Assembly: GCA_021738385.1 (NCBI GenBank)
Contig: JAIPCF010000029.1
Coordinates: 1 to 32,632, forward strand
From: Sulfuritalea sp.
GTDB taxonomy: Bacteria; Pseudomonadota; Gammaproteobacteria; Burkholderiales; Rhodocyclaceae
Reading direction: 5' to 3'
DNA: 32,632 nucleotides
A model generated the notes under the pieces. That model did no database searches. It saw only the letters and a program-made list of their open reading frames with translations, and was not told the origin of the DNA. This document shows, piece after piece, positions 534 to 30,448 of this stretch. The position numbers and the translations under genes are program-made. How positions within the stretch are numbered: position 1 is the stretch's first letter; each line of letters begins with the position of its first letter.

Positions 534-556
534 CCGTGTCACCATCGCCGAGTTTC
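534..556 (+). repeat. Dispersed 23-nt motif, copy 1 (intergenic)
   Basis: This copy matches the window consensus (CCGTNYCR followed by CCAGCGCCGACTTTT) at 20 of 23 positions, with T, G and C at positions 12, 19 and 23. It lies in the 264-base gap between the convergent DUF2322 and secF genes. It shares the CCATCGCCGA variant with the intergenic copy at 23307. I see no convincing gene in the gap. Confidence 0.6.
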
Positions 557-688
557 CGGCCGGCTACCCTGATCGAGCAAACCAAGTCCAACATTTCTGG
601 CTGCCCAAGCCAAGGAGTATCAAGTCGATTACCAGGGCCCAGAGGTATTTTCGCTTTGGGATTGCCCAAGACACCCATGTGCAAGCTG

Positions 689-1639
689 TCAGACAACGGC
701 TTCCTGCTTCTCGACCTTGGGTTGTATGAACTGCTCTCTTGAAACACCCATCCACATCACCAGAGGGCTTGCCACCAGCACGGATGAGTAGATCCCGAAT
801 AGAATGCCGATGGTCAATGCCAGAGCAAAATAGTGCAGTGCCGGGCCACCGAAAATCAACATGGAAGTTACCATCATCTGCGTGCTGCCATGGGTGATGA
901 TGGTGCGAGAAATGGTGCTGGTAATGGCATGATTGAGCACTTCCGGTGTGGTCATGCCGCGCCTCTTTTTAAAGGTTTCACGCACCCGATCAAACACCAC
1001 AACCGACTCATTGACTGAGTAGCCAAGGACCGCGAGCACCGCTGCCAATACAGGCAGCGAGAATTCCCATTGGAAGAAAGCAAAGAAGCCGAGAATAATC
1101 ACCACGTCGTGCATATTGGCAATGATTGCCGAAAGCGCAAATCGCCATTCGAAACGCATTGCCAGATAAAGCATGATTCCAATGACAACCAACAACAAGG
1201 CCAATGCACCGTCCTCAGCCAGTTCCTTGCCGACCTGGGGCCCAACGAATTCGACGCGCTTCAGCTCAAAAGCGGTACCCGACACCGTCCCACCAGTGCC
1301 GACTTTTTCCAGAGAGGCACGGACCTGATCGCCAACCTTTGATGATTCAGCACCTTTCGATAATGGCACGCGTATTAAAACGTCACGAGACGAGCCGAAA
1401 TTCTGTACCTGGGTATCGGTGAAGCCATCCACCTCCAACTGCTTGCGTATCTGCTGCAGATCCGGTGCCTGCGAATAACCCACTTCGATCAGTGTACCGC
1501 CGGTGAATTCAACCGACAGGTGCAATCCCCGACTGGCAAGGAAGAACACGGCGAGCAGGAAGGTAATCAAGGAAATGACATTGAATACCAGCGCATGGCG
1601 CATGAAGGGAATGTCTTTGCGAATACGAAAAAATTCCAT
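689..1639 (-). CDS. secF: Protein translocase subunit SecF
   Basis: SecF is an inner-membrane partner of SecD. Together they use the proton motive force to help the SecYEG channel move proteins into the periplasm. The 316-residue protein has one membrane helix near residues 16-36, a periplasmic domain that opens with the LSVEFTGGTLIEVGY motif (41-55), the FVGPQVG motif at 131-137, and five further helices. The helix-4 region reads GYSVNESVVVFDRVRE, the RND-type signature. Its ATG follows the secD stop after a single base, and the order yajC-secD-secF is the standard operon. Residues 111-119 (EKVGTGGTV) are encoded opposite one copy of the dispersed 23-nt motif, in a variable periplasmic loop. 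Length is normal for the family. Confidence 0.96.
   Translation of the reverse strand: MEFFRIRKDIPFMRHALVFNVISLITFLLAVFFLASRGLHLSVEFTGGTLIEVGYSQAPDLQQIRKQLEVDGFTDTQVQNFGSSRDVLIRVPLSKGAESSKVGDQVRASLEKVGTGGTVSGTAFELKRVEFVGPQVGKELAEDGALALLLVVIGIMLYLAMRFEWRFALSAIIANMHDVVIILGFFAFFQWEFSLPVLAAVLAVLGYSVNESVVVFDRVRETFKKRRGMTTPEVLNHAITSTISRTIITHGSTQMMVTSMLIFGGPALHYFALALTIGILFGIYSSVLVASPLVMWMGVSREQFIQPKVEKQEAVV
1285..1307 (+). repeat. Dispersed 23-nt motif, copy 2 (within secF, antisense)
   Basis: This copy matches the consensus at 22 of 23 positions when position 6 is read as Y; the only change is C to T at position 13. It runs opposite to secF and corresponds to the SecF peptide EKVGTGGTV. Confidence 0.75.
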
Positions 1640-1640
1640 G

Positions 1641-3509
1641 TCAGACTCCCGGTTTCCAGACTTGTCCGATGCTGACCGATGCCAGTTTGCGTCGGCTACC
1701 GTAGATCAGGTTGACAAGTGCTCGCGATACGACCACTGAGCTGAATATCGATGTGAGGATACCCAGACAGTGCACCACGGCAAATCCTCGCACCGGGCCT
1801 GAACCAAAAATAAGCAGCGCCACTCCGGCAATTAGCGTGGTGATATTTGAATCGAGAATCGTTGCCCAAGCGCGTTCATAGCCTGCCGTAATCGCCGCTT
1901 GTGGCGAATTCCCGCCTCGCAGCTCCTCGCGTATCCGTTCGTTGATCAGCACATTGGCGTCAATCGCCATGCCCAGTGTCAGTGCTACAGCAGCAATACC
2001 AGGCAAGGTAAGGGTGGCCTGCAGCAAGGAAAGCAACGCGATCAGAAAAAGCAAATTTGCCGACAGCGCAAAAACTGAAACAACCCCGAACAAAAGGTAG
2101 TACGCCGACATGAATACGGCGATAGCAATAAAACCCCACTGTGTCGAACTAAAGCCTTTTGCAATATTGTCCGCTCCGAGACTGGGACCAACAGTGCGCT
2201 CCTCGATGATTTCCATGGGTGCCGCAAGAGACCCGGCACGCAACAGCAGGGCCACATCGTTGGCTTCCACGGTACTCATGCGGCCAGATATCTGCACCCG
2301 GCCACCACCAATTTCCGTTCGGATAACCGGTGCGGTAACCACCTCGCCCTTGCCTTTTTCGATCAGTACGATCGCCATGCGCTTGCCAACGCTTTCCCGT
2401 GTGACATCCTTGAAAATACGGGCACCTGCTGAATCCAGGGACAAATGCACCGCCGGCTCCTGAGTCTGGCTGTCGAAGCCCGGCTGAGCGTCTGTCAAGC
2501 GTTCACCCGTCAAGACCACCTGCTTTTTGACAAGCAGCGGACTGCCCCCGCGCTCGACAAAATACTCGGTACCAGGCGGGGGCTGACCTCGAGCAGCGCG
2601 CTCGATAATGTCGGGATTGGCACTTGCTTCATCATCCACCATGCGCACTTCAAGTGTCGCGGTACGACCAAGAATGTCCTTAGCCTTGGCGGTATCCTGC
2701 ACTCCAGGCAATTGAACAACAATTCGGTCCGCGCCCTGTTGCTGAATAACCGGCTCGGCAACGCCGAGTTCGTTGATGCGGTTGTGCAAGGTCGTTATAT
2801 TTTGTTTGACCGCGAAAGCCTGAATACGTTTCTGTGCCTCAGGTTTGAGCGTTGCAACCAACTTCAGATTTTCGCCATCCTGCGCCTCTACGAGTTGGAG
2901 ATCAGGTTGATTGTCGATCAAATAGACAAGCGCCTTTTCCCGAGTTTCTGCATCGCGAAACCTTATCGTCACACTTTGCCCATCGCGGGTGATACCGCTA
3001 TGTCGGATGTTCTTGTCGCGCAGCAGACTGCGCAAATCAGCACCCGTTGAGTCAAGACGTTTGGTCAGTGCGCCCTTCATGTCCACTTGCAACAGAAAAT
3101 GCACGCCGCCACGCAGATCGAGGCCGAGGTACATGGGAAGGGCATGCATCCCCGTCAGCCAGTTCGGAGAATCGGACACCAAATTCAGCGCAACGCTATA
3201 GCTCGCGTCGGCAGCGACAGGATTTAGCGCCTTCTCTATGACATCTTTGGCCTTGATCTGGCTGTCCGTATCGGCAAGGCGCACCCGGATGCTGGTCAGA
3301 TCGAGAACAATTCCCTGCGGTGTAATCGACGCCGACTTCAGCACTTCTTCCACTTGCGCCATGAGTTTGGCGTCAACTTTATGTGTCGACTTGACGCTTG
3401 CCACCTGGACGGCAGGCGCTTCGCCGAAAAAGTTGGGCAGGGTATAGAGCAGTCCAAGCACCAAGGCAATCAGCACCGTGGCGTTTTTCCAGAGGGGATA
3501 GCGATTCAT
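1641..3509 (-). CDS. secD: Protein translocase subunit SecD
   Basis: SecD is the large partner of SecF in the proton-driven Sec accessory complex. The 622-residue protein starts with a membrane helix (residues 8-28). A large periplasmic region follows, with the LGLDLRGGVHF motif at 128-138 and a P1-type head. The C-terminal membrane domain carries GMAIDANVLINERIREEL, the conserved helix-4 segment, and ends near LVNLIYGSRRKLASVSIG. The length is that of a typical beta- or gammaproteobacterial SecD. It follows yajC after 45 bases and is one base from secF, so the three are read as one unit downstream of tgt. There are no frameshifts or missing motifs. Confidence 0.97.
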   Translation of the reverse strand: MNRYPLWKNATVLIALVLGLLYTLPNFFGEAPAVQVASVKSTHKVDAKLMAQVEEVLKSASITPQGIVLDLTSIRVRLADTDSQIKAKDVIEKALNPVAADASYSVALNLVSDSPNWLTGMHALPMYLGLDLRGGVHFLLQVDMKGALTKRLDSTGADLRSLLRDKNIRHSGITRDGQSVTIRFRDAETREKALVYLIDNQPDLQLVEAQDGENLKLVATLKPEAQKRIQAFAVKQNITTLHNRINELGVAEPVIQQQGADRIVVQLPGVQDTAKAKDILGRTATLEVRMVDDEASANPDIIERAARGQPPPGTEYFVERGGSPLLVKKQVVLTGERLTDAQPGFDSQTQEPAVHLSLDSAGARIFKDVTRESVGKRMAIVLIEKGKGEVVTAPVIRTEIGGGRVQISGRMSTVEANDVALLLRAGSLAAPMEIIEERTVGPSLGADNIAKGFSSTQWGFIAIAVFMSAYYLLFGVVSVFALSANLLFLIALLSLLQATLTLPGIAAVALTLGMAIDANVLINERIREELRGGNSPQAAITAGYERAWATILDSNITTLIAGVALLIFGSGPVRGFAVVHCLGILTSIFSSVVVSRALVNLIYGSRRKLASVSIGQVWKPGV

Positions 3510-3554
3510 GGCGTGTTAGCCGTGCCGTGTTGAAGCGGCCGGCCTAAATGAAAA

Positions 3555-3896
3555 CTACAGGTTTTTCAGCGATCCCTTGGGCAGCAGCGCGCCCACGGAG
3601 TTCTTCTGCACGGTAATCACTACCGGGCCATCCTTGGCTTCGGCCACTTCAAGACTGAGGTAGTTCTCGCCCACCTTGGAAATGCGACCGGCGATACCAC
3701 CCTGAGTGACAACTTCATCGCCCTTGGCCAGTTCGCTAACCATTTTCTGTTGCTCCTTGGCCTTTTTCATTTGTGGTCGGATCATCACGAACCACAGCAC
3801 AATGAACATCAGGATGATGGGCAGCATACTCATCAGGCCACCCGATGGGTCGGCCCCTGCACCCGCTGCTTGCGCGTAAGCATTTGAAATCAGCAC
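3555..3896 (-). CDS. yajC: Sec translocon accessory protein YajC
   Basis: YajC is a small inner-membrane protein that associates with SecD and SecF. The 113-residue product has a short N-terminus, one membrane helix (about 23-40, MLPIILMFIVLWFVMIRPQ) and the family signature MIRPQMKKAKEQQKMVSELAKGDEVVTQGGIAGRI. The start is a GTG at 3894-3896, preceded by GGAG seven bases upstream (GGAGATTTATAGTG); no better ATG lies nearby. It sits between tgt and secD on the same strand, as in most proteobacteria, and is probably transcribed from the queA-tgt promoter. The residue just before the helix is part of an SNAYAQAAGAGA stretch typical of the family. Confidence 0.95.
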   Translation of the reverse strand: MLISNAYAQAAGAGADPSGGLMSMLPIILMFIVLWFVMIRPQMKKAKEQQKMVSELAKGDEVVTQGGIAGRISKVGENYLSLEVAEAKDGPVVITVQKNSVGALLPKGSLKNL

Positions 3897-3932
3897 TATA
3901 AATCTCCAAATATGTCGGACATAACCGTCGAA

Positions 3933-6069
<2,137 letters not shown>

Positions 6070-7887: not shown

Positions 7888-8364
7888 ATGGAAATGAACG
7901 TGACTCGGAGAACCGTACTTCGCGGCGCCGGAAGCCTGGGAGCGCTGTCCGCACTCATCGCAGCCGGGGCACTAAAACCTGCAGCGGTCTTTGCGGCTGA
8001 ATGGAACAAGGGGGCCTTTGAAGCGCGTGATTCAGCAGGGGTACTCAAAAGTATCGGAGCGGAATCTGCAACTGAAAACAACAAACTGGTTCTCAAAGTA
8101 CCCGATATCGCGGAAAACGGGGCCGTAGTACCTGTAGAAGTCGTCAGCGGTATTCCCAACACAACATCGATCGCGATTCTGGTTGAGAAAAATCCTTTGC
8201 CACTTTCTGCTTATTTCGACTTTTCCAATGGCGCACTGCCGGAAGTGGCCGTTCGTCTCAAATTGGGACAAACGTCATTGATTAAAGCGGTTGCCAAGGC
8301 GGACGGCAAATTTTTTATCGCGCAAAAAGAAGTCAAGGTCACCGTTGGCGGCTGCGGCGGCTAA
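7888..8364 (+). CDS. soxY: Sulfur-carrier protein SoxY
   Basis: SoxY carries the growing sulfur intermediate of thiosulfate oxidation on a C-terminal cysteine and works as a heterodimer with SoxZ in the periplasm. The 158-residue protein ends GGCGG, the swinging-arm motif, with Cys156 as the carrier. A twin-arginine signal (TRRTVLRGAGSLGAL, residues 6-20) ends near AVFA-AEW, so the folded SoxYZ pair is probably Tat-exported. The ribosome-binding site GGAGG lies ten bases before the ATG; a second ATG two codons later is possible. It is the first gene of soxYZAXB, and the sulfur cycle depends on SoxXA loading it and SoxB releasing sulfate from it. Confidence 0.96.
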   Translation: MEMNVTRRTVLRGAGSLGALSALIAAGALKPAAVFAAEWNKGAFEARDSAGVLKSIGAESATENNKLVLKVPDIAENGAVVPVEVVSGIPNTTSIAILVEKNPLPLSAYFDFSNGALPEVAVRLKLGQTSLIKAVAKADGKFFIAQKEVKVTVGGCGG

Positions 8365-8393
8365 TCAGACCATTAGATTAAGGGGAATACATC

Positions 8394-8705
8394 ATGTCAG
8401 ATCCGATGAAAATTCGCGCCAAGATGAATGGCGATGTCGCAGAAATTAGGGTGTTAATGGGGCATCCGATGGAAACCGGTCAACGCAAAGACGCTGCGGG
8501 CAAACCTATACCACCCCATTTCATTCAGTCAATGACGGTGGAGGTCGGCGGCAAAATGATCGTCGATGGTCAAATTGGCACCTCCGTCTCACGCAACCCG
8601 GTCTTCGGCTTCAAGATGAAAGGGGCCAAGTCAGGCGACAAGGTTGTAATCAGTTGGGTAGACAACAAGGGAGATAAAAGGTCGGACTCCGTCGCAATCG
8701 CTTGA
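8394..8705 (+). CDS. soxZ: Sulfur-oxidation protein SoxZ
   Basis: SoxZ is the immunoglobulin-fold partner of SoxY; together they are the carrier used by the other Sox enzymes. The 103-residue protein has no signal peptide and is expected to be co-exported with SoxY. The start is supported by AGGGGAA nine bases upstream. Family-typical stretches include KIRAKMNGDVAEIRVLMGHPMETGQRKD, IPPHFIQSMTV and SVSRNPVFGFKMKGAKSGDKVVISWVDNKGD. It follows soxY after 29 bases. Length and motifs are normal. Confidence 0.96.
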   Translation: MSDPMKIRAKMNGDVAEIRVLMGHPMETGQRKDAAGKPIPPHFIQSMTVEVGGKMIVDGQIGTSVSRNPVFGFKMKGAKSGDKVVISWVDNKGDKRSDSVAIA

Positions 8706-8772
8706 TCCTATCCGTCACACCCTGCCTAAGCCGGAAACAAGAACCCGGCGGCAAGCCCCTGGAGGAGAAATC

Positions 8773-9582
8773 ATGAAATATCGCATCGCTATCATGGCTG
8801 CGCTCGTGGCAACTTGGACTGGACCCGTTCTGGCCCAGGAAAAAGACCCGACAATCGCTGGCATCGAGAAATACCGCGAGATGCTGGGCGACGACAATCC
8901 CGCCGAACTGTATGAGGCCCGCGGCGAAATTCTTTGGAAAAAAGCCGACGGGCCCAACAGGGTGTCGCTGGAAAAGTGTGACCTTGGTCTAGGCCCAGGC
9001 GTCGTTAAAGGCGCTTATGCGCAGTCACCTCGCTACTTTGCAGATGCTGACCGCGTCATGGATATCGAAACCCGCATCAACTGGTGTCGGGAGAAAATTC
9101 AGGGATTTAGCTCCGCCGACGTCAAGAAAAAGCCTTTTGGCAGCGCAGACAAGCCTTCCCAGATAGAGGATCTGCTGGCCTATGTGGTGACGGCTTCAAA
9201 AGGAATGAAGATCGCACCACCCAACAGCCATCCGAAAGAAAAGGAAGCCTATGAGCTCGGGAAGGCATTGTTCTTTGTCCGGGCCGGCCCTTATGACTTT
9301 TCCTGCGCATCATGCCATGGTGAAGACGAAAAGCGGATACGCCTACAGGGTCTTCCCAACCTGACTACACCGCGAGACACCAAAGCGTCCCATGCGGCTT
9401 GGCCGGCCTATCGCGTTTCAACCAGTCGCCTGCATTCCATGCAGTGGCGTATCAATGACTGCTATCGTCAGCAGCGCTTTCCGGAACCGGGATACATGAC
9501 CGACTCGGTCAACGCGCTCATTACCTACCTTGCAGTTACCGGTGAGGGCGAGTTGTACAAAGGCCCATCACTGAAGCGCTAA
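8773..9582 (+). CDS. soxA: L-cysteine S-thiosulfotransferase subunit SoxA (monoheme type)
   Basis: SoxA with SoxX couples thiosulfate oxidatively to the SoxY cysteine. The 269-residue protein has a Sec signal (residues 1-21, ending VLAQ). The only heme-binding site is CASCH at 178-182. Cys230, in the DCYRQQRF segment, is the expected persulfide-modified active-site heme ligand. The N-terminal half has Cys69 and Cys105 but no CxxCH, so the first heme of diheme SoxA proteins is absent, as in known monoheme SoxA. A strong GGAGGAG lies seven bases before the ATG. It is followed by soxX after 18 bases. Confidence 0.95.
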   Translation: MKYRIAIMAALVATWTGPVLAQEKDPTIAGIEKYREMLGDDNPAELYEARGEILWKKADGPNRVSLEKCDLGLGPGVVKGAYAQSPRYFADADRVMDIETRINWCREKIQGFSSADVKKKPFGSADKPSQIEDLLAYVVTASKGMKIAPPNSHPKEKEAYELGKALFFVRAGPYDFSCASCHGEDEKRIRLQGLPNLTTPRDTKASHAAWPAYRVSTSRLHSMQWRINDCYRQQRFPEPGYMTDSVNALITYLAVTGEGELYKGPSLKR

Positions 9583-9600
9583 CACGGAGGAAAAAAGACC

Positions 9601-10254
9601 ATGAAAAAGATCAATACCCCCTTGCTGGCGATTTCAATGAGCATCGCCGCCGTTCTTGCTGCCGGCTGCGCGACGCAACAAAGCCATAGCATGCATCAAA
9701 CATCGCCCGAAATGATACAAAAGGCTTTCGCAGCGATGAAGCGCGACTTTCATGCGCGAGCGATAGCCACCATGGATCGCCTTGATACGGACAAAGTTCA
9801 GGATGTCTGTAACGCCACAGGCGACGTACCACCCGAAGAGATGGCCGCAAAACTTGAAGCTGAACAAACAGCCACCCTGAAGCTACCAGCTGACGGAAAC
9901 TATATGGGCGACTGGAAAGCCGGTGAAAAAATTGCGCAAAGTGGACGGGGCATGACGTGGAGGGACAAAAAAATGGAGCCCGAAAAGAATGGTGGCAACT
10001 GCTATAACTGCCACCAAATTTCACCACAGGAAGTTTCCTATGGCACGATCGGGCCCAGCCTCCTGGGCTTCGGCAAAATCCGCGGCAATACTGCTGAAAC
10101 ACAGAAGTATGCTTACTCCAAGATCTATAACTCCAAGGCATTCAACGCCTGCTCTACGATGCCGCGCTTTGGCCATGTCGGCGCGTTGAACGAAAAGCAG
10201 ATCAAGGATCTGGTCGCCTTGCTGGTCGATCCCGCATCACCGGTCAACAAGTAG
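9601..10254 (+). CDS. soxX: Cytochrome SoxX, predicted lipoprotein
   Basis: SoxX is the c-type cytochrome that accepts electrons from the SoxA reaction. The 217-residue protein has one heme site, CYNCH at 134-138, and the distal ligand Met187 in CSTMPRFGHVG. The N-terminus (residues 1-23) ends in LAAGC, a good lipobox with Cys23 as the acylation site, so SoxX and perhaps the whole XA complex may be anchored to a membrane. About 110 residues with an extra Cys70 separate the lipobox from the heme domain, making it longer than compact SoxX proteins. GGAGG precedes the ATG by ten bases. A strong terminator follows 17 bases after the stop. Confidence 0.94.
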   Translation: MKKINTPLLAISMSIAAVLAAGCATQQSHSMHQTSPEMIQKAFAAMKRDFHARAIATMDRLDTDKVQDVCNATGDVPPEEMAAKLEAEQTATLKLPADGNYMGDWKAGEKIAQSGRGMTWRDKKMEPEKNGGNCYNCHQISPQEVSYGTIGPSLLGFGKIRGNTAETQKYAYSKIYNSKAFNACSTMPRFGHVGALNEKQIKDLVALLVDPASPVNK

Positions 10255-10271
10255 AGCAAGGTATGGCACCT

Positions 10272-10299
10272 AAGGCCTGACTTCGGTCAGGCCTTTTTT
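10272..10299 (+). terminator. Intrinsic terminator between soxX and soxB
   Basis: AAGGCCTGAC (10272-10281) pairs perfectly with GTCAGGCCTT (10286-10295) around a TTCG tetraloop, and a run of six T residues (10294-10299) follows. This is a textbook rho-independent terminator. It ends 27 bases before the chosen soxB start, so soxB is either expressed by read-through at a lower level or from its own promoter. Confidence 0.88.
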
Positions 10300-10326
10300 A
10301 TGTCTTTCTTTTTCAGAGGTATCACG

Positions 10327-12045
10327 ATGTCCTCAATGAACCGCCGCGAATTTCTGCAAATGCTGGCCGCCGCCTCGGTCGCCGGAGTTGCGCTCGATTC
10401 CCGTTCACTTCTTGCGGCTGAAAACGCCGACGCGTTGTACGAGCTTCCAAAGTTCGGCAACGTGCACTTCATGCACTTCACCGACTGCCACGCACAACTG
10501 CTGCCGATCTGGTTTCGCGAGCCGAGCGTCAATCTAGGTATCGGCGGCGCCTTCGGCAAAGCACCCCATCTGGTTGGCGAACATCTGCTCAAGGCCTTCA
10601 ATATCAAGCCCGGAACACGCGAAGCGCATGCCTTTACCTATCTTGATTTCGCGGAAGCGGCAAGAATCTACGGCAAGGTCGGCGGCTTTGCCCACTTGGC
10701 TACCCTGGTAAAACGCTTGCGTGGCCAGCGCCCCGGAGCACTGCTGCTCGATGGCGGGGATACCTGGCAGGGCTCGGCCACGGCCTTGTGGAGCAAAGGC
10801 CAGGACATGGTGGATGCCTGCAAGCTGCTCGGCGTCGACATGATGTCGGCCCACTGGGAATTCACCCTGGGTGACAAACGCGTGCAGGAAATCATCGATA
10901 AGGACTTGAAGGGCAGAATCGAATTCCTGGCCCAGAACGTCAAAACCACCGATTTCGGCGATCCGGTTTTTCCGCCCTACGCGATGCGCGAAATGAATGG
11001 CGTACAAGTGGCGGTCATAGGCCAAGCCTTCCCCTACACGCCGATCGCCAACCCGCGTTACATGATCCCGGACTGGACCTTCGGTATCCAGGACGAGAAC
11101 ATGCAAAAAATGGTCAACGAAGTGCGCGCTAAAGGCGCAAAAGTCGTAATCGTTCTCTCACACAATGGCATGGATGTCGACCTCAAGATGGCAACGCGTG
11201 TCACCGGCATCAATGCCATCATGGGTGGCCACACCCATGATGGGGTCCCGCAGCCGATCACGGTGAAAAATTCTGGCGGCCAGACGCTGGTTACCAATGC
11301 CGGATCCAATGGCAAGTTCCTCGCCGTGCTCGACTTCGACGTACGCAATGACAAAGTTCAGGACTTTCGTTACAAGCTGCTGCCAGTCTTCTCCAACCTG
11401 CTGCCAGCTGATCCAGGGATGGCGGCCTACATAGACAAGGTACGCGCCCCGCACATTACCAGGCTTGAAGAGCAACTCGCCGTCACCGAAGGCCTGCTCT
11501 ATCGTCGCGGCAATTTCAACGGTAGCTGGGATCAACTGATCCTGGATGCTCTTATGGACGTCAAGGGTGCTGATATCGGCTTTTCGCCAGGTTTCCGCTG
11601 GGGTACCACCTTGCTACCGGGAAGTGCGATTACTTTTGAACATCTGATGGACCAAACTGCTATCACCTATCCTTATGCGACCCTGAACGAAATGAAGGGG
11701 GAGCGAGTCAAGGTAGTGCTGGAAGATATCGCCGACAACCTTTACAACCCCGACCCGTATTACCAGCAGGGCGGCGATATGGTGCGCGTGGGCGGCATGA
11801 GCTACACCTGCGATCCCAATGCAAAAGCCGGAAACCGGATTTCCGACATGCGCCTCAATGGCAAGCCGATAATGGCGGGTAAGACATACAAGGTCGCCGG
11901 CTGGGCGCCGGTAGATCCCACTGCCAAGGGTGAGCCTATATGGGAAGTCGTCGGCGACTGGCTGAAAGACAAGAAAACCGTCAGCGCACGAAAGGTCAAT
12001 GTACCAAAACTGATTGGTATGAAAGGCAACCCGGGAATCGCTTAA
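10327..12045 (+). CDS. soxB: Thiosulfohydrolase SoxB
   Basis: SoxB is the periplasmic di-manganese enzyme that hydrolyses the terminal sulfonate from SoxY, releasing sulfate. The 572-residue protein has a twin-arginine signal at its start (MNRREFLQMLAAASVAGVAL). Metal and active-site motifs are FTDCHAQL (Asp53, His55), LLDGGDTWQGS (Asp145), SAHWEFTLGD, VLSHNGMD (His279) and GGHTHD (His302, His304). I placed the start at ATG 10327, where AGAGGT lies seven to eight bases upstream. The frame opens earlier at ATG 10300, but that codon overlaps the end of the terminator and adds nine residues before the Tat signal. soxCD does not follow; the next gene is an efflux adaptor. Confidence 0.95.
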   Translation: MSSMNRREFLQMLAAASVAGVALDSRSLLAAENADALYELPKFGNVHFMHFTDCHAQLLPIWFREPSVNLGIGGAFGKAPHLVGEHLLKAFNIKPGTREAHAFTYLDFAEAARIYGKVGGFAHLATLVKRLRGQRPGALLLDGGDTWQGSATALWSKGQDMVDACKLLGVDMMSAHWEFTLGDKRVQEIIDKDLKGRIEFLAQNVKTTDFGDPVFPPYAMREMNGVQVAVIGQAFPYTPIANPRYMIPDWTFGIQDENMQKMVNEVRAKGAKVVIVLSHNGMDVDLKMATRVTGINAIMGGHTHDGVPQPITVKNSGGQTLVTNAGSNGKFLAVLDFDVRNDKVQDFRYKLLPVFSNLLPADPGMAAYIDKVRAPHITRLEEQLAVTEGLLYRRGNFNGSWDQLILDALMDVKGADIGFSPGFRWGTTLLPGSAITFEHLMDQTAITYPYATLNEMKGERVKVVLEDIADNLYNPDPYYQQGGDMVRVGGMSYTCDPNAKAGNRISDMRLNGKPIMAGKTYKVAGWAPVDPTAKGEPIWEVVGDWLKDKKTVSARKVNVPKLIGMKGNPGIA

Positions 12046-12091: not shown

Positions 12092-13645
12092 ATGAAAACA
12101 ATCCCGCGTTTTGGACAGGTATTTGTTGCCTTGGTGGTGGTTGCCGGAGTTGGCTATGGGGCATGGCGTACCTACGGCACACCCGGTGATACGCCCAAGT
12201 TCAAACTGAGCAAAGTTGAAATCGGTCAGTTGACTTCCGCCGTCTCCGCAACCGGCACTTTGAACCCTGTAGTTTCGGTACAAGTTGGCTCGCAAGTCTC
12301 GGGGCAGATCAAGGAAATCCTGGTCGATTACAACTCGTCGGTGAAGAAAGATCAGTTGATCGCCCGCATCGACCCGGAAACTTTCCAGTACCGAGTTCGC
12401 CAGGCCGAGGCCGATGTCGAGGCGACGCGCGCAGCGCTTGGAGTGCAGCAAGCTGAAGTGATGCGTGCCAAAGCGAATCTGGCGGAGTTGCAGCGCGACT
12501 TTGAACGCAAGAAGCTGTTGGTCGAAAAGAACTTCCTTTCATCGGCCGAGCGCGACAAGGCGCAATCGGCATTTGACGCGGGCCGCGCCTCGGTATTGGT
12601 TGCCGAAGCGCAAGCGAGGAACAGTGAGGCACAGGTTCGCCAGCGCCAGGCCCAATTGGCACAGGCACGCATCGATCTCGAACGCACGGCGATCAAGGCG
12701 CCGGTCGATGGCATCGTCGTCAAGCGCAGTATCGAACCGGGACAAACAGTCGCCGCCAGCCTGCAATCTCCCGAATTGTTCATCATCGCCAAGAATCTCT
12801 CTGACATGCAGGTCGAAACGTCTATTGACGAGGCCGATGTCGGACGTATCCACACCGGGCAAAAAGCCAGCTTTACCGTCGACGCTTTCGCTGGGCGTCA
12901 CTTTGAGGGCGAAGTCAAGCAAGTGCGCAAGGCTGCCACCGTGGTTTCCAATGTAGTCACCTATATCGTGGTGGTTTCCGCCGACAATCCCGATCTCACT
13001 TTGCTGCCCGGCATGACCGCAAATGTTCGCATCGTAACGGCGCAAAAGGAAAAAGCGCTAAAAGTACCCAATGCCGCACTGCGTTTCCGCCCACAAAACG
13101 TATCTGGTGAAACAGGAACCAAGACTGCCGTGTCGCCAGCGCCGAGTTTTAGCGGAAGTGGCGCTGGCAGCACTGCAGGTGGCGGTAGCGGTGGACTTGG
13201 CCAACTGCGCGAGCGGCTGGTCGCTGAACTCAAACTCGATGCCGATCAGCAAGGCAAACTTGAAGCTATCTTTGCCGGAATGCGCGACAAATTCCGTGCG
13301 GCTCGCGAACTACCGGATGCAGAGAAAACCCGGGCGCAGGAACGCAATCGTGCTGAAATTCGCGAGAAAATCTCGCTCATCCTCACGCCGGAGCAAAAGA
13401 AGCGCTACGACGAAATGACCAGCGCGGCCCAAGCCGCTCGCGCTGGCAGTGGCGGTGGTAGCGGACGGGTCTGGATCATTGGTCCGGATGGCAAGCCAAA
13501 AGCAATCGATGTTCGCCTGGGGCTTACCGATGGCAGCATGACGGAAATTGTTTCAGGCGAGATCAAGGCCGGCAGTGAAGTCATTGTCGGCCTGCAATCC
13601 GCAAATGGCGCCAAACCCGGGATGCCCGGCCCGCGCCTGTTCTGA
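12092..13645 (+). CDS. MacA-like periplasmic adaptor with inserted Spy/CpxP-like helical domain
   Basis: This 517-residue HlyD/MacA-family adaptor would link an inner-membrane ABC transporter to an outer-membrane channel. Residues 1-27 form a membrane anchor. A barrel-lipoyl-hairpin core follows: VQVGSQVSGQIKEI (63-76), a coiled-coil hairpin (about 100-200) and APVDGIVVKRSIEPGQTV (203-220). The usual beta-barrel and membrane-proximal domain is interrupted at about 352-458 by a Gly/Ser-rich linker, an alpha-helical block (369-450) and a second GSGGGSG linker. The block has two LTxxQ-like motifs, LKLDADQQGKLEAI and LILTPEQKKRYDEM, as in Spy and CpxP chaperones. The domain resumes at VWIIGPDGKPKAIDVRLG. 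Its stop overlaps the ATPase ATG by one base. A copy of the dispersed motif encodes AVSPAPSF at the front edge of the insertion. Confidence 0.9.
   Translation: MKTIPRFGQVFVALVVVAGVGYGAWRTYGTPGDTPKFKLSKVEIGQLTSAVSATGTLNPVVSVQVGSQVSGQIKEILVDYNSSVKKDQLIARIDPETFQYRVRQAEADVEATRAALGVQQAEVMRAKANLAELQRDFERKKLLVEKNFLSSAERDKAQSAFDAGRASVLVAEAQARNSEAQVRQRQAQLAQARIDLERTAIKAPVDGIVVKRSIEPGQTVAASLQSPELFIIAKNLSDMQVETSIDEADVGRIHTGQKASFTVDAFAGRHFEGEVKQVRKAATVVSNVVTYIVVVSADNPDLTLLPGMTANVRIVTAQKEKALKVPNAALRFRPQNVSGETGTKTAVSPAPSFSGSGAGSTAGGGSGGLGQLRERLVAELKLDADQQGKLEAIFAGMRDKFRAARELPDAEKTRAQERNRAEIREKISLILTPEQKKRYDEMTSAAQAARAGSGGGSGRVWIIGPDGKPKAIDVRLGLTDGSMTEIVSGEIKAGSEVIVGLQSANGAKPGMPGPRLF
13128..13150 (+). repeat. 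Dispersed 23-nt motif, copy 4 (within the macA-like gene, sense)
   Basis: It matches 22 of 23 consensus positions; C is replaced by G at position 19. It encodes AVSPAPSF (residues 346-353), directly before the Gly/Ser-rich linker of the adaptor insertion. Confidence 0.8.
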
Positions 13646-20911: not shown

Positions 20912-22459
20912 TTGAACGCGACCACAGATAATATTGCCCATTCCGCAGACGCAACCCTAGAAACAAACCTGGATACGACGTCCGACGCCAATCTGGCTGC
21001 CGTCCCACCAGCGCCGACTTTTGCCCAGTTGGGCCTGCTGCCCGAGTTGTTGCGCGCCATCACCGACGCCGGCTACACCACCCCGACGCCGATCCAGTTG
21101 CAGGCAATCCCCATAATCATGGCCGGCAAGGACGTCATGGGCGGAGCCCAAACGGGTACCGGCAAGACCGCTGGCTTCACTCTGCCGCTTCTACAACGAC
21201 TGGCCCGCTATGCCAGCAGTTCGCCTTCGCCGGCCCGCCATCCGGTTCGGGCGCTGATTCTGGCACCAACTCGCGAGTTGGCCATGCAGGTGCATCAAAG
21301 TGTGGTCACCTATAGCAAGCACCTTCCGCTGCGTTCGGTCTGCATCTACGGCGGCGTCGATATCCGGCCACAAATCGCTGAATTGCGCGAGGGCCGAGAG
21401 ATTGTGGTCGCCACCCCGGGGCGCCTGCTCGATCACGTTCAACAGAAAAGCGTCAGTTTCAATGCCGTCGAAGTTCTGGTGCTCGACGAAGCCGACCGCA
21501 TGCTGGACATGGGTTTCATCCCGGACATCAAACGCATCCTTGCCATGCTACCGAAGGAACGCCAGAGTTTGCTTTTCTCGGCGACCTTCTCAAACGAGAT
21601 CAAGAACCTCGCGGACAGCATGCTGAAGGCGCCGCAACTGATCGAAGTCGCACGGCGCAATATGGTGACCGAAACCGTTACCCACCGCGTGTACCCCGTA
21701 GCGTCCGACTTGAAGCGCAGCCTGCTGGTGCATCTGCTGACGCACGACGAAGAGAACGCCAAGCAAGTGCTGGTCTTCGTCGGCACCAAATTCGGCGCCA
21801 GCCGTCTGGCTGTATATCTCGAGCGCCAAGGCATCGCCGCCGACGCCATTCACGGTGACAAGAGCCAGCAGCAACGCACCGAAGCGCTTGATGGCTTCAA
21901 ATTGGGCAAGATCCGCGTGCTGGTCGCGACCGACGTCGCCGCGCGTGGCCTCGACATCGACGACCTGCCGCACGTCATCAACTACGAGTTGCCGCACACG
22001 GCTGAAGACTACATTCATCGTATCGGTCGCACCGGGCGCGCCGGCAAACTGGGCAACGCCACCTCACTGTTCGCCCCCGAGGAAACACCCCGTCTGGCCG
22101 ATATTGAAAAACTGATCAAGCGCAAGATCGAACGGGTCGAGATCACCGGCTTCAATCTTGGCAGTGCTCCGCAGGAACGCGAACGCGGGCGTGAACGAAG
22201 TGGCGGCAGCCATCGGCGAGAGCACGAAGAGCACCGCCGAGAGCGTGAAACCAAGCAACACGATCGCCGACCGCCGCCTCACTTGCCGGCGGCCGCCGCG
22301 CATCTGCCGCGCGTTGATACTCGCTTGCCGAAACTCGATTTCGACCCAAACAAGCCGTATGTCAATAAAACCGCAGCGGGAGTGGGCACCGAAAAAGCCG
22401 CACCAATTCGACCGCAGCGACCCGTCGCCGCACTGCTTGGCGGGCTGGGAAAAAAATAG
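20912..22459 (+). CDS. DEAD-box ATP-dependent RNA helicase, RhlE-like
   Basis: This 515-residue RNA helicase of the RhlE/SrmB type remodels structured RNA, for example during ribosome assembly and in the cold. Motifs in order: Q-motif FAQLGLLPELLRAITDAGYTTPTPIQ, Walker A AQTGTGKT, PTRELA, TPGRLLDH, DEAD, SAT, VLVFVGTKF, ATDVAARGLDID and HRIGRTGRAG. A basic Arg/Glu-rich tail (about 405-515) probably binds RNA. The start is a TTG at 20912 with AGGAG five bases upstream; no better start is present before the Q-motif. Residues 30-37 (AVPPAPTF), in the linker just before the Q-motif, are encoded by a copy of the dispersed 23-nt motif. The stop is directly followed by the GTG of the next gene. Confidence 0.95.
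   Translation: MNATTDNIAHSADATLETNLDTTSDANLAAVPPAPTFAQLGLLPELLRAITDAGYTTPTPIQLQAIPIIMAGKDVMGGAQTGTGKTAGFTLPLLQRLARYASSSPSPARHPVRALILAPTRELAMQVHQSVVTYSKHLPLRSVCIYGGVDIRPQIAELREGREIVVATPGRLLDHVQQKSVSFNAVEVLVLDEADRMLDMGFIPDIKRILAMLPKERQSLLFSATFSNEIKNLADSMLKAPQLIEVARRNMVTETVTHRVYPVASDLKRSLLVHLLTHDEENAKQVLVFVGTKFGASRLAVYLERQGIAADAIHGDKSQQQRTEALDGFKLGKIRVLVATDVAARGLDIDDLPHVINYELPHTAEDYIHRIGRTGRAGKLGNATSLFAPEETPRLADIEKLIKRKIERVEITGFNLGSAPQERERGRERSGGSHRREHEEHRRERETKQHDRRPPPHLPAAAAHLPRVDTRLPKLDFDPNKPYVNKTAAGVGTEKAAPIRPQRPVAALLGGLGKK
21000..21022 (+). repeat. Dispersed 23-nt motif, copy 5 (within the helicase gene, sense)
   Basis: It matches all 23 positions if position 6 is Y (CCGTCCCA, then the perfect 15-nt core). 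It encodes AVPPAPTF in the N-terminal linker of the helicase. Confidence 0.85.
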
Positions 22460-23308
22460 GTGAAACTAGTCCGCTTCGGTGCCAAAGGCCGTGAAAAGCC
22501 CGGCCTGATAGATGCCTCCGGCTGCTTGCGCGACCTGTCCGGCCATATCGCCGACATTGGCTGGAAGGAGCTCTCCTCAGCGGGACAGAAAAATTTGCGC
22601 TCGCTGAATCCAGCTTCGCTACCACTGGTACGCGGCAAACCCCGCTTCGGTGTTCCCTTCACCGGTATATCGAAAATTGTCGGTATCGGTCTCAACTATC
22701 GCGCCCACGCCAAGGAAGCGAAGATGCCGATTCCACTCGAGCCGGTGGTGTTCATGAAGGCTACCACCTGCATTTCCGGACCCAACGATCCCATCCAGCA
22801 GCCGATCGGTAGCAGCAAGCTCGACTGGGAAGTTGAACTCGGTATTGTCATCGGCCGCGAGACGCGCCAGGTCAGCGAGATCAAGGCACTCAATCACGTC
22901 GCCGGTTACTGCGTATTCCATGATGTTTCGGAACGCGCTTTTCAGCTTGAACGGGGAGGTCAATGGGACAAGGGCAAAAGCTGCGACAGCTTTGGACCCA
23001 TCGGCCCCTGGCTGGTCACCAGGGACGAAGTCAAGAACCCGCAGGAACTGCGCCTGTGGCTCGATGTCAATGGAGAACGCATGCAGGACTCCAGCACCGC
23101 CGACATGATTTTTTCCTGCGCCGAGATCGTCAGCTACGTGTCGCGTTTCATGACGCTACTGCCAGGTGATGTGATCTGCACCGGCACACCGCAGGGTGTC
23201 GGCATGGGGCGCGGCCGCTTTCTGAAGATCGGCGACCAGATCAGACTCGGCGTCGATGGACTCGGGGAGCAGGTGCAAACGATCGTTCCTGCGCGCCTGC
23301 CCCGATAA
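22460..23308 (+). CDS. Fumarylacetoacetate hydrolase family protein
   Basis: The 282-residue cytoplasmic enzyme has the FAH fold. A short N-terminal domain (KLVRFGAKGREKPGLIDASG) is followed by the catalytic domain with GIGLNYRAHAKE, PVVFMKATTCISGPNDPI, the metal-binding segment LDWEVELGIVIG, VFHDVSERAFQ, WDKGKSCDSFGPIGPWLVTRDE and TGTPQGVGMG. Such enzymes cleave or isomerise carbon-carbon bonds in 2-oxo acids from aromatic degradation, or act as acylpyruvases or ureidoglycolate lyase-like enzymes; the substrate is not decidable here. A GTG at 22460 begins right after the helicase stop, so translation may be coupled. The stop codon overlaps the edge of an intergenic copy of the dispersed motif. 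Confidence 0.92.
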   Translation: MKLVRFGAKGREKPGLIDASGCLRDLSGHIADIGWKELSSAGQKNLRSLNPASLPLVRGKPRFGVPFTGISKIVGIGLNYRAHAKEAKMPIPLEPVVFMKATTCISGPNDPIQQPIGSSKLDWEVELGIVIGRETRQVSEIKALNHVAGYCVFHDVSERAFQLERGGQWDKGKSCDSFGPIGPWLVTRDEVKNPQELRLWLDVNGERMQDSSTADMIFSCAEIVSYVSRFMTLLPGDVICTGTPQGVGMGRGRFLKIGDQIRLGVDGLGEQVQTIVPARLPR

Positions 23309-23329
23309 AAGTCGGCGATGGTGATACGG
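23307..23329 (-). repeat. Dispersed 23-nt motif, copy 6 (intergenic, end of FAH gene)
   Basis: On the minus strand it matches 22 of 23 positions, with T at position 12. It starts inside the stop codon of the FAH-family gene. A small hairpin (ACGGCG 23326-23331 with CGCCGT 23339-23344) overlaps its 5' arm and could act as a weak terminator between the convergent FAH and panD genes. Confidence 0.8.
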
Positions 23330-23385
23330 CGACCTTAACGCCGTTTCGCGCGAGAAAGAGACAGCCCCTACAGGCAAGTATCCCT

Positions 23386-23769
23386 TCAGGCTGCTGCCTG
23401 TGCCGGAATCTGGCGGCTGTGATGCGTGATGCGGTTTTTTGCGTCAACGTAGACCAGATCGGGTTCGTAAACCTTCAGTTCCGCTTCGTCCAACATGATG
23501 TAGCTGGCAATGATCACCAGATCGCCTGGCGCGGCAAGACGAGCAGCAGCTCCATTGATTGAAATCGTGCCGCTGCCTCGTTCCGCGCTCATGGTGTAGG
23601 TTGAGAAACGCTGGCCGTTGGTCACGTTATAGATATCGACTTGCTGGTACTCCCTAAGGCCCGCGGCCTCAAGCAAGTTTTCGTCGATGGCGCAGGAGCC
23701 TTCATAGTGCAATTCGGCGTGGGTCACGGTGACCCGGTGAAGCTTGGATTGAAGCATCATGCGTTGCAT
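23386..23769 (-). CDS. panD: Aspartate 1-decarboxylase
   Basis: PanD makes beta-alanine from aspartate for pantothenate and coenzyme A synthesis. It is made as an inactive proenzyme that cuts itself between Gly24 and Ser25 to form a pyruvoyl cofactor; the motif HYEGSCAID is present. Other family motifs are [23 protein letters not shown] and [20 protein letters not shown] placed the start at ATG 23769 because AAAGGA precedes it and the product begins [12 protein letters not shown], matching the usual N-terminus. An ATG seven codons upstream gives an unsupported extension. The 127-residue length is normal. It is on the same strand as panC and panB but 111 bases apart. Confidence 0.96.
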
Positions 23770-23880
23770 TGTCGGTCCTTTCTCATGCAAAGGTGGCGGC
23801 CGGGAATGCCTCTAAACGAAGTACTCACTCCCGTCTCGTTCGCTTCTGGCACACCACCGGCATGAGCGCATCGCAGTGAC

Positions 23881-25640: not shown

Positions 25641-26135
25641 TCACGCAGAGACTTCAGGCATTCTGTGAATCCGCTGCGCAGTGCAGTTCCGCAGTAGCTC
25701 GCCAACGAAGCCTTGCCCAGGAATGCTGAGCGATGGCGCGATTTCAGCCAGCGGAGCCAGTACAAAGGCCCGTTCATGCAGGCGCGGATGCGGCAGAGTG
25801 AGTTGCGGATCCTGGCTGAGTTCATCTCCGTAAAGCAACAAATCGAGATCCAGAGTCCGCGGTGCGTTCTTTACACTACGCTGACGGCCGAAGCGCTCTT
25901 CAATCGCAAACAACTGGTCCAGTAAAGTCGGCGCTGGCAAGACGGTGAGCAGTTCAACCACGGCATTGATAAAGTCAGGCTGATGCTTCAGCCCCACGGG
26001 CGCCGTCCGGTACAAAGACGAAGCGGCCATGAATTCAGAATGAGGAAGTTCTTGCAAAGCGAGAATGGCCGCATTGACAGTTGCTACCGGGTCCCCAAGA
26101 TTGGCGCCCAGCGCGATGAAGCATCGCTGGCTCAC
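25641..26135 (-). CDS. folK: 2-amino-4-hydroxy-6-hydroxymethyldihydropteridine pyrophosphokinase
   Basis: FolK transfers pyrophosphate from ATP to hydroxymethyl-dihydropterin in folate synthesis. The 164-residue protein has the HPPK motifs CFIALGANLGDP at the start, YRTAPVGLKHQPDFINAVVEL, the metal-binding PRTLDLDLLLYGDE and LPHPRLHERAFVLAPLAEI. The start is one base after the pcnB stop, the common betaproteobacterial order. Residues 64-71 (TVLPAPTL), in the loop before the helix that leads to the ATP site, are encoded by a copy of the dispersed 23-nt motif. Length is normal. Confidence 0.96.
   Translation of the reverse strand: MSQRCFIALGANLGDPVATVNAAILALQELPHSEFMAASSLYRTAPVGLKHQPDFINAVVELLTVLPAPTLLDQLFAIEERFGRQRSVKNAPRTLDLDLLLYGDELSQDPQLTLPHPRLHERAFVLAPLAEIAPSLSIPGQGFVGELLRNCTAQRIHRMPEVSA
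25923..25945 (-). repeat. Dispersed 23-nt motif, copy 7 (within folK, sense)
   Basis: On the minus strand it matches 21 of 23 positions, with T at position 7 and A at position 23; 14 of the 15 core bases are identical. It encodes TVLPAPTL in FolK, the same frame as in the adaptor and helicase copies. Confidence 0.75.
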
Positions 26136-26136
26136 A

Positions 26137-27486: not shown

Positions 27487-27531
27487 GGAAAAGGTATGGA
27501 AACCCTGCAGAGCCTGCTTCTGGAGGCCGCA

Positions 27532-27596
27532 ATGATAGCCGAAACGCCCGGCCGACGCAGATTTGCGGCAGTCACAGCCTCGCCTTCCGCTAAAAT
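27532..27596. promoter_or_regulatory. Divergent pcnB/valS promoter region
   Basis: The 136 bases between the divergent pcnB and valS starts contain two plausible -10 boxes. TAAAAT on the plus strand (27591-27596) lies 27 bases before valS. TATCAT on the minus strand (27537-27532) lies 46 bases before pcnB. Neither has a clear -35 at 17 bases, so the assignments are tentative. Confidence 0.35.
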
Positions 27597-27622
27597 TGGC
27601 TTTTCCCCGCCTTGTAAGACCT

Positions 27623-30448
27623 ATGGAACTCGCCAAGAGCTTCGAACCTGCCGAAATAGAGCGCCACTGGTACCCGATCTGGGAATCGCGTGGCTACTTT
27701 GCCGCCGGGCTCGACACCAGCAAGACCGAAAATTTCTGCATTCTGCTACCGCCGCCAAATGTGACGGGGACCCTGCACATGGGTCACGGTTTCAACCAGG
27801 CCATCATGGATTCGATGACCCGCTACCATCGCATGCGCGGCGACAATACTTTGTGGCAGCCAGGAACCGACCACGCCGGCATCGCCACACAGATTGTTGT
27901 GGAACGGCAGCTTGACGCCCAGGGAATATCTCGTCACGAACTGGGCCGCGAGAAGTTCCTCGAAAAGGTCTGGGAATGGAAAGCCTTCTCCGGCGACACC
28001 ATCACCAAACAGATGCGCCGCCTCGGTACTTCGCCGGACTGGACACGCGAGCGCTTCACCATGGATGCAGGACTATCCAAGATAGTTACCGAATCTTTTG
28101 TCCGGTTGCACAAGGAAGGCCTGATCTACCGTGGCAAGCGACTGGTGAATTGGGACCCGGTATTGCACACCGCTGTCTCCGATCTGGAAGTGGTGAGCGA
28201 GGAAGAGGACGGATTTCTCTGGCATATCCGCTATCCCCTGAGCGATGGCTCGGGTCATTTGACGGTGGCAACGACGCGCCCGGAAACCATGCTCGGCGAC
28301 ACAGCCGTAATGGTGCATCCGGACGATCCGCGTTATATGCATTTAATCGGCAAGACCGTCAAGTTGCCACTTTGCGAGCGCGAATTGCCGATCATCGCCG
28401 ATGCCTTCGTCGATCTGGAGTTCGGCACCGGTTGCGTCAAGGTAACCCCGGCGCATGATTTCAACGACTACGCGGTGGGGCAACGCCACCAACTTCCCGT
28501 CATTTCTATTCTTACGCTGGACGCCAAGATCAACGATAACGCGCCTGAAAAATATCGGGGCATGGACCGCTTCGACGCACGCAAGCTCATCGTTGCCGAC
28601 CTCGAAGCTCTTGATCTGCTTGAAAAAACCGACAAGCACACGCTCAAGGTACCGCGCGGCGACCGTACTCACCAGATTATCGAACCCATGCTCACCGACC
28701 AATGGTTCGTCGCAGTGAGCAAACCCGGCCACGATGGCAAGAGCATTGCCGGCAAGGCGCTGGAGTGCGTAGCCTCGGGCGAAATCAAACTGGTACCCGA
28801 AAACTGGGTCAATACTTACAACCAATGGCTCAACAATATTCAGGACTGGTGCATTTCGCGCCAGCTTTGGTGGGGCCACCAGATTCCTGCCTGGTATGCC
28901 GACGACGGTCGACTATTCGTCGCCCATGACGAGGCCGAAGCATACGAACTGGCAAAAGCCGATGGCTATGCGGGTGCCTTGACACGCGATGATGACGTGC
29001 TGGACACCTGGTACTCCTCTGCGTTGTGGCCGTTCTCGACCCTGGACTGGACACCGGAATGGCCAGCCAAATCGAACCCCGCGCTTGATCTTTATCTACC
29101 ATCGTCCGTACTGGTTACCGGATTCGACATCATCTTTTTCTGGGTAGCGCGAATGGTCATGATGACCAAGCACATCACCGGAAAGATACCGTTCAAAAAT
29201 GTTTATGTGCACGGCCTGATCCGCGACGCCGAAGGCCACAAGATGTCCAAGTCCAAGGGCAACGTGCTTGACCCGATCGATCTGATCGATGGCATTGGGC
29301 TTGATGACCTGGTGAAGAAGCGCACCACCGGCCTGATGAATCCCAGGGATGCGGCGAAGATCGAAAAGCGCACGCGCAAGGAGTACCCAAACGGCATTCC
29401 TGGCTTTGGCACCGATGCACTACGCTTTACCTTTCTCAGCCTCGCCAGCCCGGGGCGCGACATCAAATTCGACATGCAGCGCTGCGAGGGCTATCGCAAC
29501 TTCTGCAACAAACTGTGGAACGCCACACGCTTTGTACTGATGAATTGCGAAGGGCAGGATTGCGGCCTTGCTGAACACGGATCGGACGCTTGCAACGCCA
29601 CCTATCTTGACTTTTCGCCGGCTGATCGCTGGATCGTCAGCCGCCTGCAACGCGTCGAGCACGAGGTCGAGCAGCACTTCGTCGATTATCGCTTTGATCT
29701 ACTGGCACGCGCCATCTACGAATTTGTCTGGGATGAATATTGCGACTGGTATCTGGAGCTGGCCAAAGTACAGGTTCAGCAGGGCCGCGAAGCGCAGCAG
29801 CGCGCAACGCGCCGCACCCTGGTGCGCGTGCTGGAGACTGTGTTGCGTTTGGCGCATCCGCTGATACCTTTCATCACCGAGGAGCTCTGGCAAACGGTCG
29901 CACCACTGGCCGGTCGGGCCGATGCGCAGGATGAATCCAAATCCTTGATGCTCCAGCCTTACCCGAAGGCCGATCTATCGCGTTGCGATACCAAAGCCGA
30001 AGCCTGGGTGGCCCTGCTGAAGGATATGGTCACCGCCTGTCGCAGCCTGCGTGGCGAAATGAACATCTCCCCTGCCCTGCGCGTACCATTAGTCGGCGCT
30101 GGCGACACGACGACACTGACTGCGTATGCGCCTTATCTGGCGGCATTGGCGAAGCTCTCCGAGGTCACAACCGCTTCAGCGCTGCCCGAGTCGGATGCCC
30201 CTGTGCAGATCATCGGCGAGTTCCGCCTGATGCTGAAAATCGAAATCGACGTGGCTACCGAAAAAGAACGACTCGGCAAGGAACTCACCCGCGTCGAAGG
30301 TGAAATCCTCAAGGCAGAGAAAAAGCTCGCCACAGAAAGCTTTGTCGCCCGCGCCCCGGCTCAGGTCGTTGCGCTGGAGCGCGAACGGCTGGACACCTTT
30401 GCCGCCCTGGCTGGAAAACTCAAAGCGCAAATCGCGCGGCTGGGATAA
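27623..30448 (+). CDS. valS: Valyl-tRNA synthetase
   Basis: This class I synthetase attaches valine to its tRNA and edits threonine mischarging. The 941-residue protein has the HIGH motif as HMGH in [19 protein letters not shown], the editing-domain signature [19 protein letters not shown], the catalytic [20 protein letters not shown], the [10 protein letters not shown] tRNA-binding start and a C-terminal coiled coil (about 870-941). I chose ATG 27623, giving [21 protein letters not shown], the standard N-terminus. The frame extends 20 codons further upstream without similarity. Residues 822-830 (VGAGDT) are encoded opposite a copy of the dispersed motif. A hairpin terminator follows the stop after 15 bases. 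Confidence 0.98.
30088..30110 (-). repeat. Dispersed 23-nt motif, copy 8 (within valS, antisense)
   Basis: On the minus strand it matches 20 of 23 positions: T at position 1 and AA at positions 21-22. The twelve core bases CCAGCGCCGACT are exact. It lies opposite valS and corresponds to VGAGDT, the same frame as the queA and secF copies. Confidence 0.65.

Follow-up and report, generated by a model that had tools for sequence, protein, structure and literature searches.

What does a DNA word do that recurs among unrelated genes and in intergenic DNA along one short contig? The question is raised by a stretch of 32,632 nucleotides from Sulfuritalea sp. (Rhodocyclaceae; contig JAIPCF010000029.1, assembly GCA_021738385.1), hereafter the window, in which an initial annotation had recorded eight copies of a 23-nt word with a 15-nt core, and had proposed that it was a DNA uptake sequence, a chromosome-organising or repair motif, or a protein-binding site. 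We analyzed the word in the window, in its genome and in related genomes. Judging from sequence comparison, we consider it probable (roughly 0.75) that the word serves a clade of Rhodocyclaceae (Sulfuritalea, Rugosibacter, Sulfurisoma and relatives) as a DNA uptake sequence, which would mark kin DNA.

Abundance, architecture and origin of the word

The core was counted in the window's own genome (3.34 Mb in 162 contigs, 82% complete), and the same pattern read backwards (reversed) was used as a control. With up to two mismatches, 664 sites were found, 353 of them forward and 311 reverse, whereas the control gave 25 (15 and 10); with up to one mismatch, the counts were 467 and 3. The word is strongly over-represented genome-wide on both strands, and it is not limited to the window: all 30 same-genus genomes searched hold it, with 78-700 sites each at up to two mismatches. 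At the same threshold, six other genera of the family gave 15-25 sites (controls 10-28), and 24 genomes of other families gave 1-48, the highest (G043) having a control of 30. Inside the window, ten sites lie within three mismatches of the core, a number reached by none of 100 dinucleotide shuffles (mean 1.73, maximum 6); the hand estimate of 0.00006 expected occurrences of an exact 15-mer was correct under equal base use.

The unit proved to be longer than the 23 nt first assigned to it, since two further 5' bases are conserved, mostly C then G, the first being T or A in some window copies. The full unit of 25 bp reads cGCCGTNYCR-CCAGCGCC-GACTTTT, that is, a 5' box, an 8-nt middle, CCAGCGCC, and a 3' box. 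At the exact-core places of the window's own genome (38 sites in 30 loci, picked by the core, so that the core columns are biased), the 5' part was conserved and nothing was conserved beyond the unit. In the same-genus genome G002, a complete chromosome of 3,802,648 bp, 72 sites with up to five mismatches in 400 kb gave the consensus CGCCGTNYCGCCAGCGCCGACTYTY. Because conservation stops sharply on both sides, the word is a non-palindromic, two-box unit of about 25 bp. Each of the eight window copies differs from the 25-bp consensus by one to three bases, and the reversed consensus had no match in the window within six mismatches and one at seven. A local cluster of at least five words in 3 kb was seen in G000 (L010; contig C7, ~7.6-10.6 kb).

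The initial annotation had suggested comparing orthologues to see whether the word is gained as a unit, and queA, which holds one of the window copies, was used for this comparison. Among 29 aligned orthologues, the word (up to two mismatches) stands at the identical place in 18, the window's included; three (G016, G072, G025) carry degenerate forms and eight lack the word. G002, outside this alignment, likewise has the word there. Across the 18 carriers, no gap falls within the word in the protein alignment, and the word is also ungapped against the orthologues lacking it; with phmmer, the solved QueA chain 1vky showed no gap at the site and 1wdi a gap of one residue. The sequence comparison thus indicates that, at this one locus, the word formed by substitution and not by insertion. 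A search for a plasmid match to the queA site gave none. In G025 (L369), a 9-residue insertion beside the word site disrupts the word.

A short repeat that moves or duplicates, spreading via insertion or gene conversion, might also leave behind hundreds of nearly identical copies in one limited clade. We regard such a repeat as quite improbable, given that the queA word is ungapped against orthologues lacking it (indels were looked at in queA only), that the solved chains show at most the one-residue gap of 1wdi, and that the flanks outside the 25 bp are not conserved. The concerted one-letter switch described below would also be unexpected from insertions.

Distribution, loss and dialects

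We surveyed 395 genomes of the family for the core with up to one mismatch, tallying by hand. Seven genera, which account for 58 of the 395 genomes, are word-rich: g1 (23 genomes), g43 (19), g88 (9), g70 (4), and g32, g62 and g69 (one each). Of these genomes, 56 hold 52-649 copies, and the remaining 337 genomes of the family hold 0-19 (the highest being G076 and G109 with 19 and G069 with 11). Among the matches listed (at least 112 stretches), the named carriers were Sulfuritalea, Rugosibacter and Sulfurisoma, including the isolate S. sediminicola BSN1; many further matches were metagenome-assembled genomes (MAGs) of Rhodocyclaceae or Rhodocyclales.

The word is nearly absent from single genomes of word-rich genera. 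G016 (99% complete) has 18 copies and G293 (87%) has 2. The same loss was seen with the two-box pattern defined below, with which G205 (98% complete) has 6 matches against 176-369 in the other genomes of g34, and G136 (79%) has 1 against 75 in its g47 relative. An eroded copy, with five mismatches, remains in queA of G016. K-mer enrichment found no dispersed long word replacing the lost one in G016 and G293, and no comparable word in G034, G068, G071, G079, G087, G095, G106, G110, G120 and G135; the samples of 20-166 kb were too small to exclude sparse words.

Three genomes of the window's genus, G001, G015 and G027, had few sites at one mismatch and many at two, and their word differs at position 9 of the core, with A for G. 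The exact A9 variant, CCAGCGCCAACTYTT, occurs 133, 164 and 180 times in G001, G015 and G027, respectively, and 0-5 times in 55 other genomes. At the orthologous site in queA, too, all three have the A variant. They form one clade inside the genus, with support of 100/99, in a tree built from 28 QueA protein rows; from this we conclude that one switch occurred in this lineage, followed by genome-wide replacement.

A second kind of change was found in the genus g34 by unsupervised k-mer counting. Its word, CGCCGTGCCGCggGGACTGACTTTT, keeps the 5' box, the 3' box and the spacing, and has a different middle; ACTGACTTTT, a part of it, was counted at 15 sites in 60 kb with up to one mismatch, and the reversed part at 2. 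This word, whose middle ends in GACT, was first met in G063 (L312-L314, L395) and was confirmed in five of six g34 genomes.

We then ran the two-box pattern CGCCGTNYCR-N8-GACTYTT, with up to one mismatch, on 80 genomes. It matched 176-369 times in the five g34 genomes, 163-744 times in most word-rich genomes to which it was applied (g1, g32, g62, g70, g88) and 150-164 times in the two switched g1 genomes run. Representatives of g43 and g69, which start with TGCCGT or use CCAGCGTC, gave 39 and 44. G076 (g47) gave 75, G119 (g90) 45, G109 (g80) 15 and the decayed G016 24, and the rest gave 0-8. With a spacer one base shorter (7 nt), there were 0-3 matches in each of the 395 family genomes, which makes this a clean control for the spacing. 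Clade-specific dialects with concerted genome-wide change were found, in which the boxes and their spacing stay fixed. We take G076, G119 and G109 to be intermediate or young states of the word; G076 has mixed middles, several of them with RCT directly ahead of GACTTTC.

The two-box search outside the family covered 50 families and 291 genomes; 289 of these gave 0-5 matches, the exceptions being G436 (9) and G483 (13). The matches in G483 (family f38) include both middles and are clustered on C5, C34, C45, C67 and others; they are likely foreign, horizontally acquired DNA or mis-binned DNA. One or a few full 25-mers in the otherwise word-free genomes G071, G084, G033 and G075 are candidates for DNA received from word-rich relatives. 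Exact 25-mers on MAG contigs labelled Planctomycetota and Omnitrophota (L088, L138) are likely to reflect mis-binning. The exact extended word was also found in 55 viral-contig stretches of IMG/VR (L151-L205; 535 kb), which hold 105 sites with up to four mismatches against 0 reversed, and which may be phages that bear their host's word, or else host DNA.

Placement of the word and its probable function

Placement was analyzed in 800 kb of the G002 chromosome (40 stretches; sites with up to four mismatches; 738 genes and 88.4% coding sequence by a custom gene caller). There were 143 sites against 0 for the reversed control: 92 inside genes, 48 in gaps and 3 straddling gene ends. The 51 sites that are not wholly genic stand against 11.6% of the sequence (p 6e-14), and the density is about 0.55 per kb outside genes and 0.13 inside, a ratio of about four. 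Convergent gaps hold 14 of the 48 gap sites in 11.6% of the gap space (p 0.0008), and divergent gaps hold 7 in 21.8% (p 0.29).

The genic copies bear on whether codon use or conserved protein motifs produced the over-representation. The initial annotation had described two opposite coding frames. These do dominate, as an over-representation of this origin would predict, with 40 of the 92 copies antisense and giving VGAG-type peptides and 22 same-sense and giving PAPT-type peptides; in all, however, six frame and sense classes are used. Codon use or protein motifs as the cause are refuted by the 48 intergenic copies, and the zero count of the reversed control and the sister genera of similar composition that lack the word argue in the same direction, so that we give this explanation almost no weight.

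The over-use of convergent gaps and the TTTT at the end of the word would suit a role in RNA or transcription, such as a terminator or an RNA processing signal. In addition, two head-to-head inverted word pairs with spacers of 5-6 bp were found in G002 (L231:19146-19200 and L235:1774-1829). Inverted pairs of the DNA uptake sequence (DUS) occur in Neisseria terminators, and the G002 pairs resemble these. Yet such pairs are just two among 143 sites, 92 copies lie within genes in both senses, and single words fold no better than their shuffles (z -0.59 to 0.96, four sequences). These data make an RNA role very improbable.

Sites were then assigned to replication strands by hand, with the terminus placed at the skew turn near 1.85 Mb and 13 sites near the inferred origin omitted. 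The leading strand carried 67 sites and the lagging strand 63 (p 0.79), indicating no polarity of the Chi or KOPS type. Counts per 20 kb were near Poisson (mean 3.6, variance 3.8), and in the 40 sampled stretches the words were spread round the chromosome without an obvious focus at the origin (ori) or terminus (ter). Low-GC stretches hold fewer words (Spearman 0.49, p 0.0014), and the lowest, at 1.90 Mb, holds none; such a pattern would be expected were recently arrived foreign DNA free of the word, and composition alone could also explain it.

A binding site for a chromosome-organising, replication or repair protein, comparable to matS, SMC-loading sites, Chi or KOPS, would share with the word its high copy number, its wide near-Poisson scatter and its enrichment outside genes. 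A DNA-binding protein with changed specificity could also yield dialects, and among the rivals only such a nucleoid or repair protein could still account for most of the features. We nevertheless consider it unlikely and disfavour this candidate role. Like Chi, KOPS and matS, the word is a short site scattered in many places; unlike them, it has no strand polarity, is limited to a clade and is longer. A length of 25 bp without a palindrome and the lack of an obvious ori or ter focus also speak against a protein site, as does the loss of the word in single species of word-rich genera (G016, G293, G205, G136), which would not be expected of an essential site.

An uptake sequence gives the best fit. 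We favour it because of the concerted switching, the fixed frame with an exchangeable middle, the decay in single species, which has occurred repeatedly, the origin by substitution, and a placement that appears to be driven by tolerance, with enrichment in convergent gaps and no polarity. These features are those that would be expected of biased uptake plus recombination, and the DUS dialects of Neisseriaceae show them (PMC3630211). In such a process, a surface receptor, most probably one of the minor type IV pilins, would bind free double-stranded DNA bearing the word in preference to other DNA. Once bound, the DNA would be drawn inward and through ComEC, shielded by DprA and then recombined. 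Word-bearing fragments would win, and the word would build up wherever it is tolerated, in gaps between convergent genes and in permissive codons. A change in receptor specificity would lead to the rewriting of a genome's words over time, giving dialects, and where the bias is lost the words would decay. Binding, uptake bias, the identity of the receptor and spread by transformation are what we infer from these patterns.

We also examined the competence genes, as the initial annotation had proposed. They are present: ComEC (PF03772) was found in 60 of 60 genomes and DprA (PF02481) above the cut-off in 57 of 60, the window's genome included in both cases, and ComP_DUS pilins (PF16732) were matched in 75 of 79 genomes. 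They do not discriminate, however. ComEC and DprA are present with or without the word and were rejected as discriminators, and ComP_DUS, which matched word-rich and word-free genomes alike, was rejected as a receptor marker. The machinery makes uptake possible and is not proof of it; because none of ComEC, DprA and the ComP-like pilins distinguishes genomes rich in the word from those free of it, we infer the receptor and the uptake bias only. Minor type IV pilin sets (fimT/pilV/pilW/pilE-like) are conserved in the word-rich and word-free regions examined, and none of the pilins compared followed the presence of the word. The switched genomes G001, G015 and G027 have a second minor-pilin set (L236, L237, L241), with a 180-aa ComP_DUS-type pilin beside a response regulator. 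This pilin was rejected as the dialect receptor, as the non-switched G018 has a match of the same length.

Several points weigh against an uptake sequence. DprA is missing or weak in G001 (83% complete), weak in the word-rich G004 and not found in the word-rich, complete G125, and the word-bearing G098 has no ComP_DUS match. ComEC, DprA and ComP_DUS also occur in word-free genera and in decayed lineages, so that the presence of the machinery does not follow that of the word. A cruder half-sample of G002, scored by local GC skew, gave a split of 43 to 26 for the G-rich strand (hand-calculated binomial ~0.05), an effect that vanished with the fuller sample and the assignment of ori and ter. The density of about one word per 5 kb is well under Neisseriaceae counts (for example ~1900 in N. 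meningitidis, PMC3630211), and 25 bp exceeds the 9-12 nt of known signals.

Self-specific DNA uptake is described in two families only, both with short signals (PMC12616744). The Neisseriaceae DUS, whose receptor is ComP, resembles the word in having hundreds to thousands of copies on both strands, genic and intergenic, with one-letter dialects within clades and some family members without it, and all eight of its dialects keep CTG at +6 to +8 (PMC3630211). This hallmark, together with the A at +10 of GCCGTCTGAA-type words, is absent from the consensus GCCGTNYCRCC, although by eye the 5' box has GCCGTCT in common with the DUS GCCGTCTGAA if its variable letters are C and T. The word also differs from the DUS in being a 25-bp, two-box unit instead of 10-12 bp, in its lower density, in the family that carries it, and in having a receptor that is only presumed. 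Pasteurellaceae uptake signal sequences (USS; AAGTGCGGT, ACAAGCGGT) resemble the word in their genome-wide copies, their clade-differing types and their long footprint with flanking parts. The USS inner core is the 4-letter GCGG (PMC12616744), which occurs on neither strand of the word consensus; the word's reverse strand, AAAAGTCGGCGC, merely resembles the USS AAGTGCGGT by eye. Lacking the defining core of both known kinds, the word would be an uptake signal of putative function. Searches of open-licence literature, outside which most subscription journals lie, gave nothing relevant on uptake sequences in Rhodocyclaceae, Rhodocyclales, Sulfuritalea or relatives; among the text matches to GCCGACTTTT listed (20 of 61 papers), most were eukaryotic or medical and, going by their titles, chance (primer) matches.

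It also seems likely to us, if a little less so, that Rhodocyclaceae have a third, independently evolved code for the uptake of self DNA, in which the outer boxes and their spacing are fixed and the 8-nt middle carries the dialect. Sister genera (CCAGCGCC, the A9 variant, the GACT-ending middle of g34) would then be cut off in part from each other's genes, with a single tree-dated switch within a genus. If so, this longer, modular signal belongs to free-living bacteria of freshwater, groundwater and sludge, and uptake words would be no speciality of host-associated pathogens and commensals. From the word, natural competence is predicted in organisms for which few genetic tools exist, and the word suggests a sequence for inclusion in DNA meant to transform them; the word-rich, switched and decayed genomes offer a natural series for finding the receptor.

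Copies in the window

The eight strong copies recorded by the initial annotation are all present. Two of them lie between convergent genes, as it had stated. One, at 532..556 (+; 3/25 mismatches), is in the gap between an open reading frame (ORF) at 95-424 (+) and secF (689-1639, -). The other, at 23307..23331 (-; 1 mismatch), is in the gap between ORFs 22460-23308 (+) and 23386-23790 (-), and overlaps the stop codon of the former by two bases.

Three of the genic copies are antisense to their genes: 1283..1307 (+; 2 mismatches) in secF, with the peptide KVGTGGT; 5248..5272 (+; 1 mismatch, core exact) in queA (5041-6069, -), with KVGAGETA; and 30088..30112 (-; 3 mismatches) in a valS-like ORF (27563-30448, +), with VGAGDTT. 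The other three are same-sense: 13126..13150 (+; 2 mismatches; SPAPSF) in ORF 12092-13645 (+), which resembles a MacA-type adaptor; 20998..21022 (+; 1 mismatch, core exact; PPAPTF) near the start of the DEAD-box helicase-like ORF 20912-22459 (+); and 25923..25947 (-; 3 mismatches; LPAPTL) in a folK-like ORF (25641-26135, -). The valS-like, MacA-type, helicase-like and folK-like ORFs were named by eye.

The core is exact in two copies, as had been reported, and it has one mismatch in four (1293, 13136, 23307, 25923) instead of the three reported. A weak match at 4959..4983 (-; 5/25 mismatches) in tgt, counted earlier as a weak copy at 4959-4981, was judged not to be a member. This site was matched at four to five mismatches in 5 of the 16 queA loci of the genus that were examined, including that of the window, suggesting that it is probably conserved coding sequence. 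Site 13946, with three core mismatches and without the 5' box, looks like a chance match. Elsewhere in the window, at 7888-12045, a run of ORFs resembles soxYZAXB (thiosulfate oxidation) by eye, which fits a sulfur-oxidising relative of Sulfuritalea.

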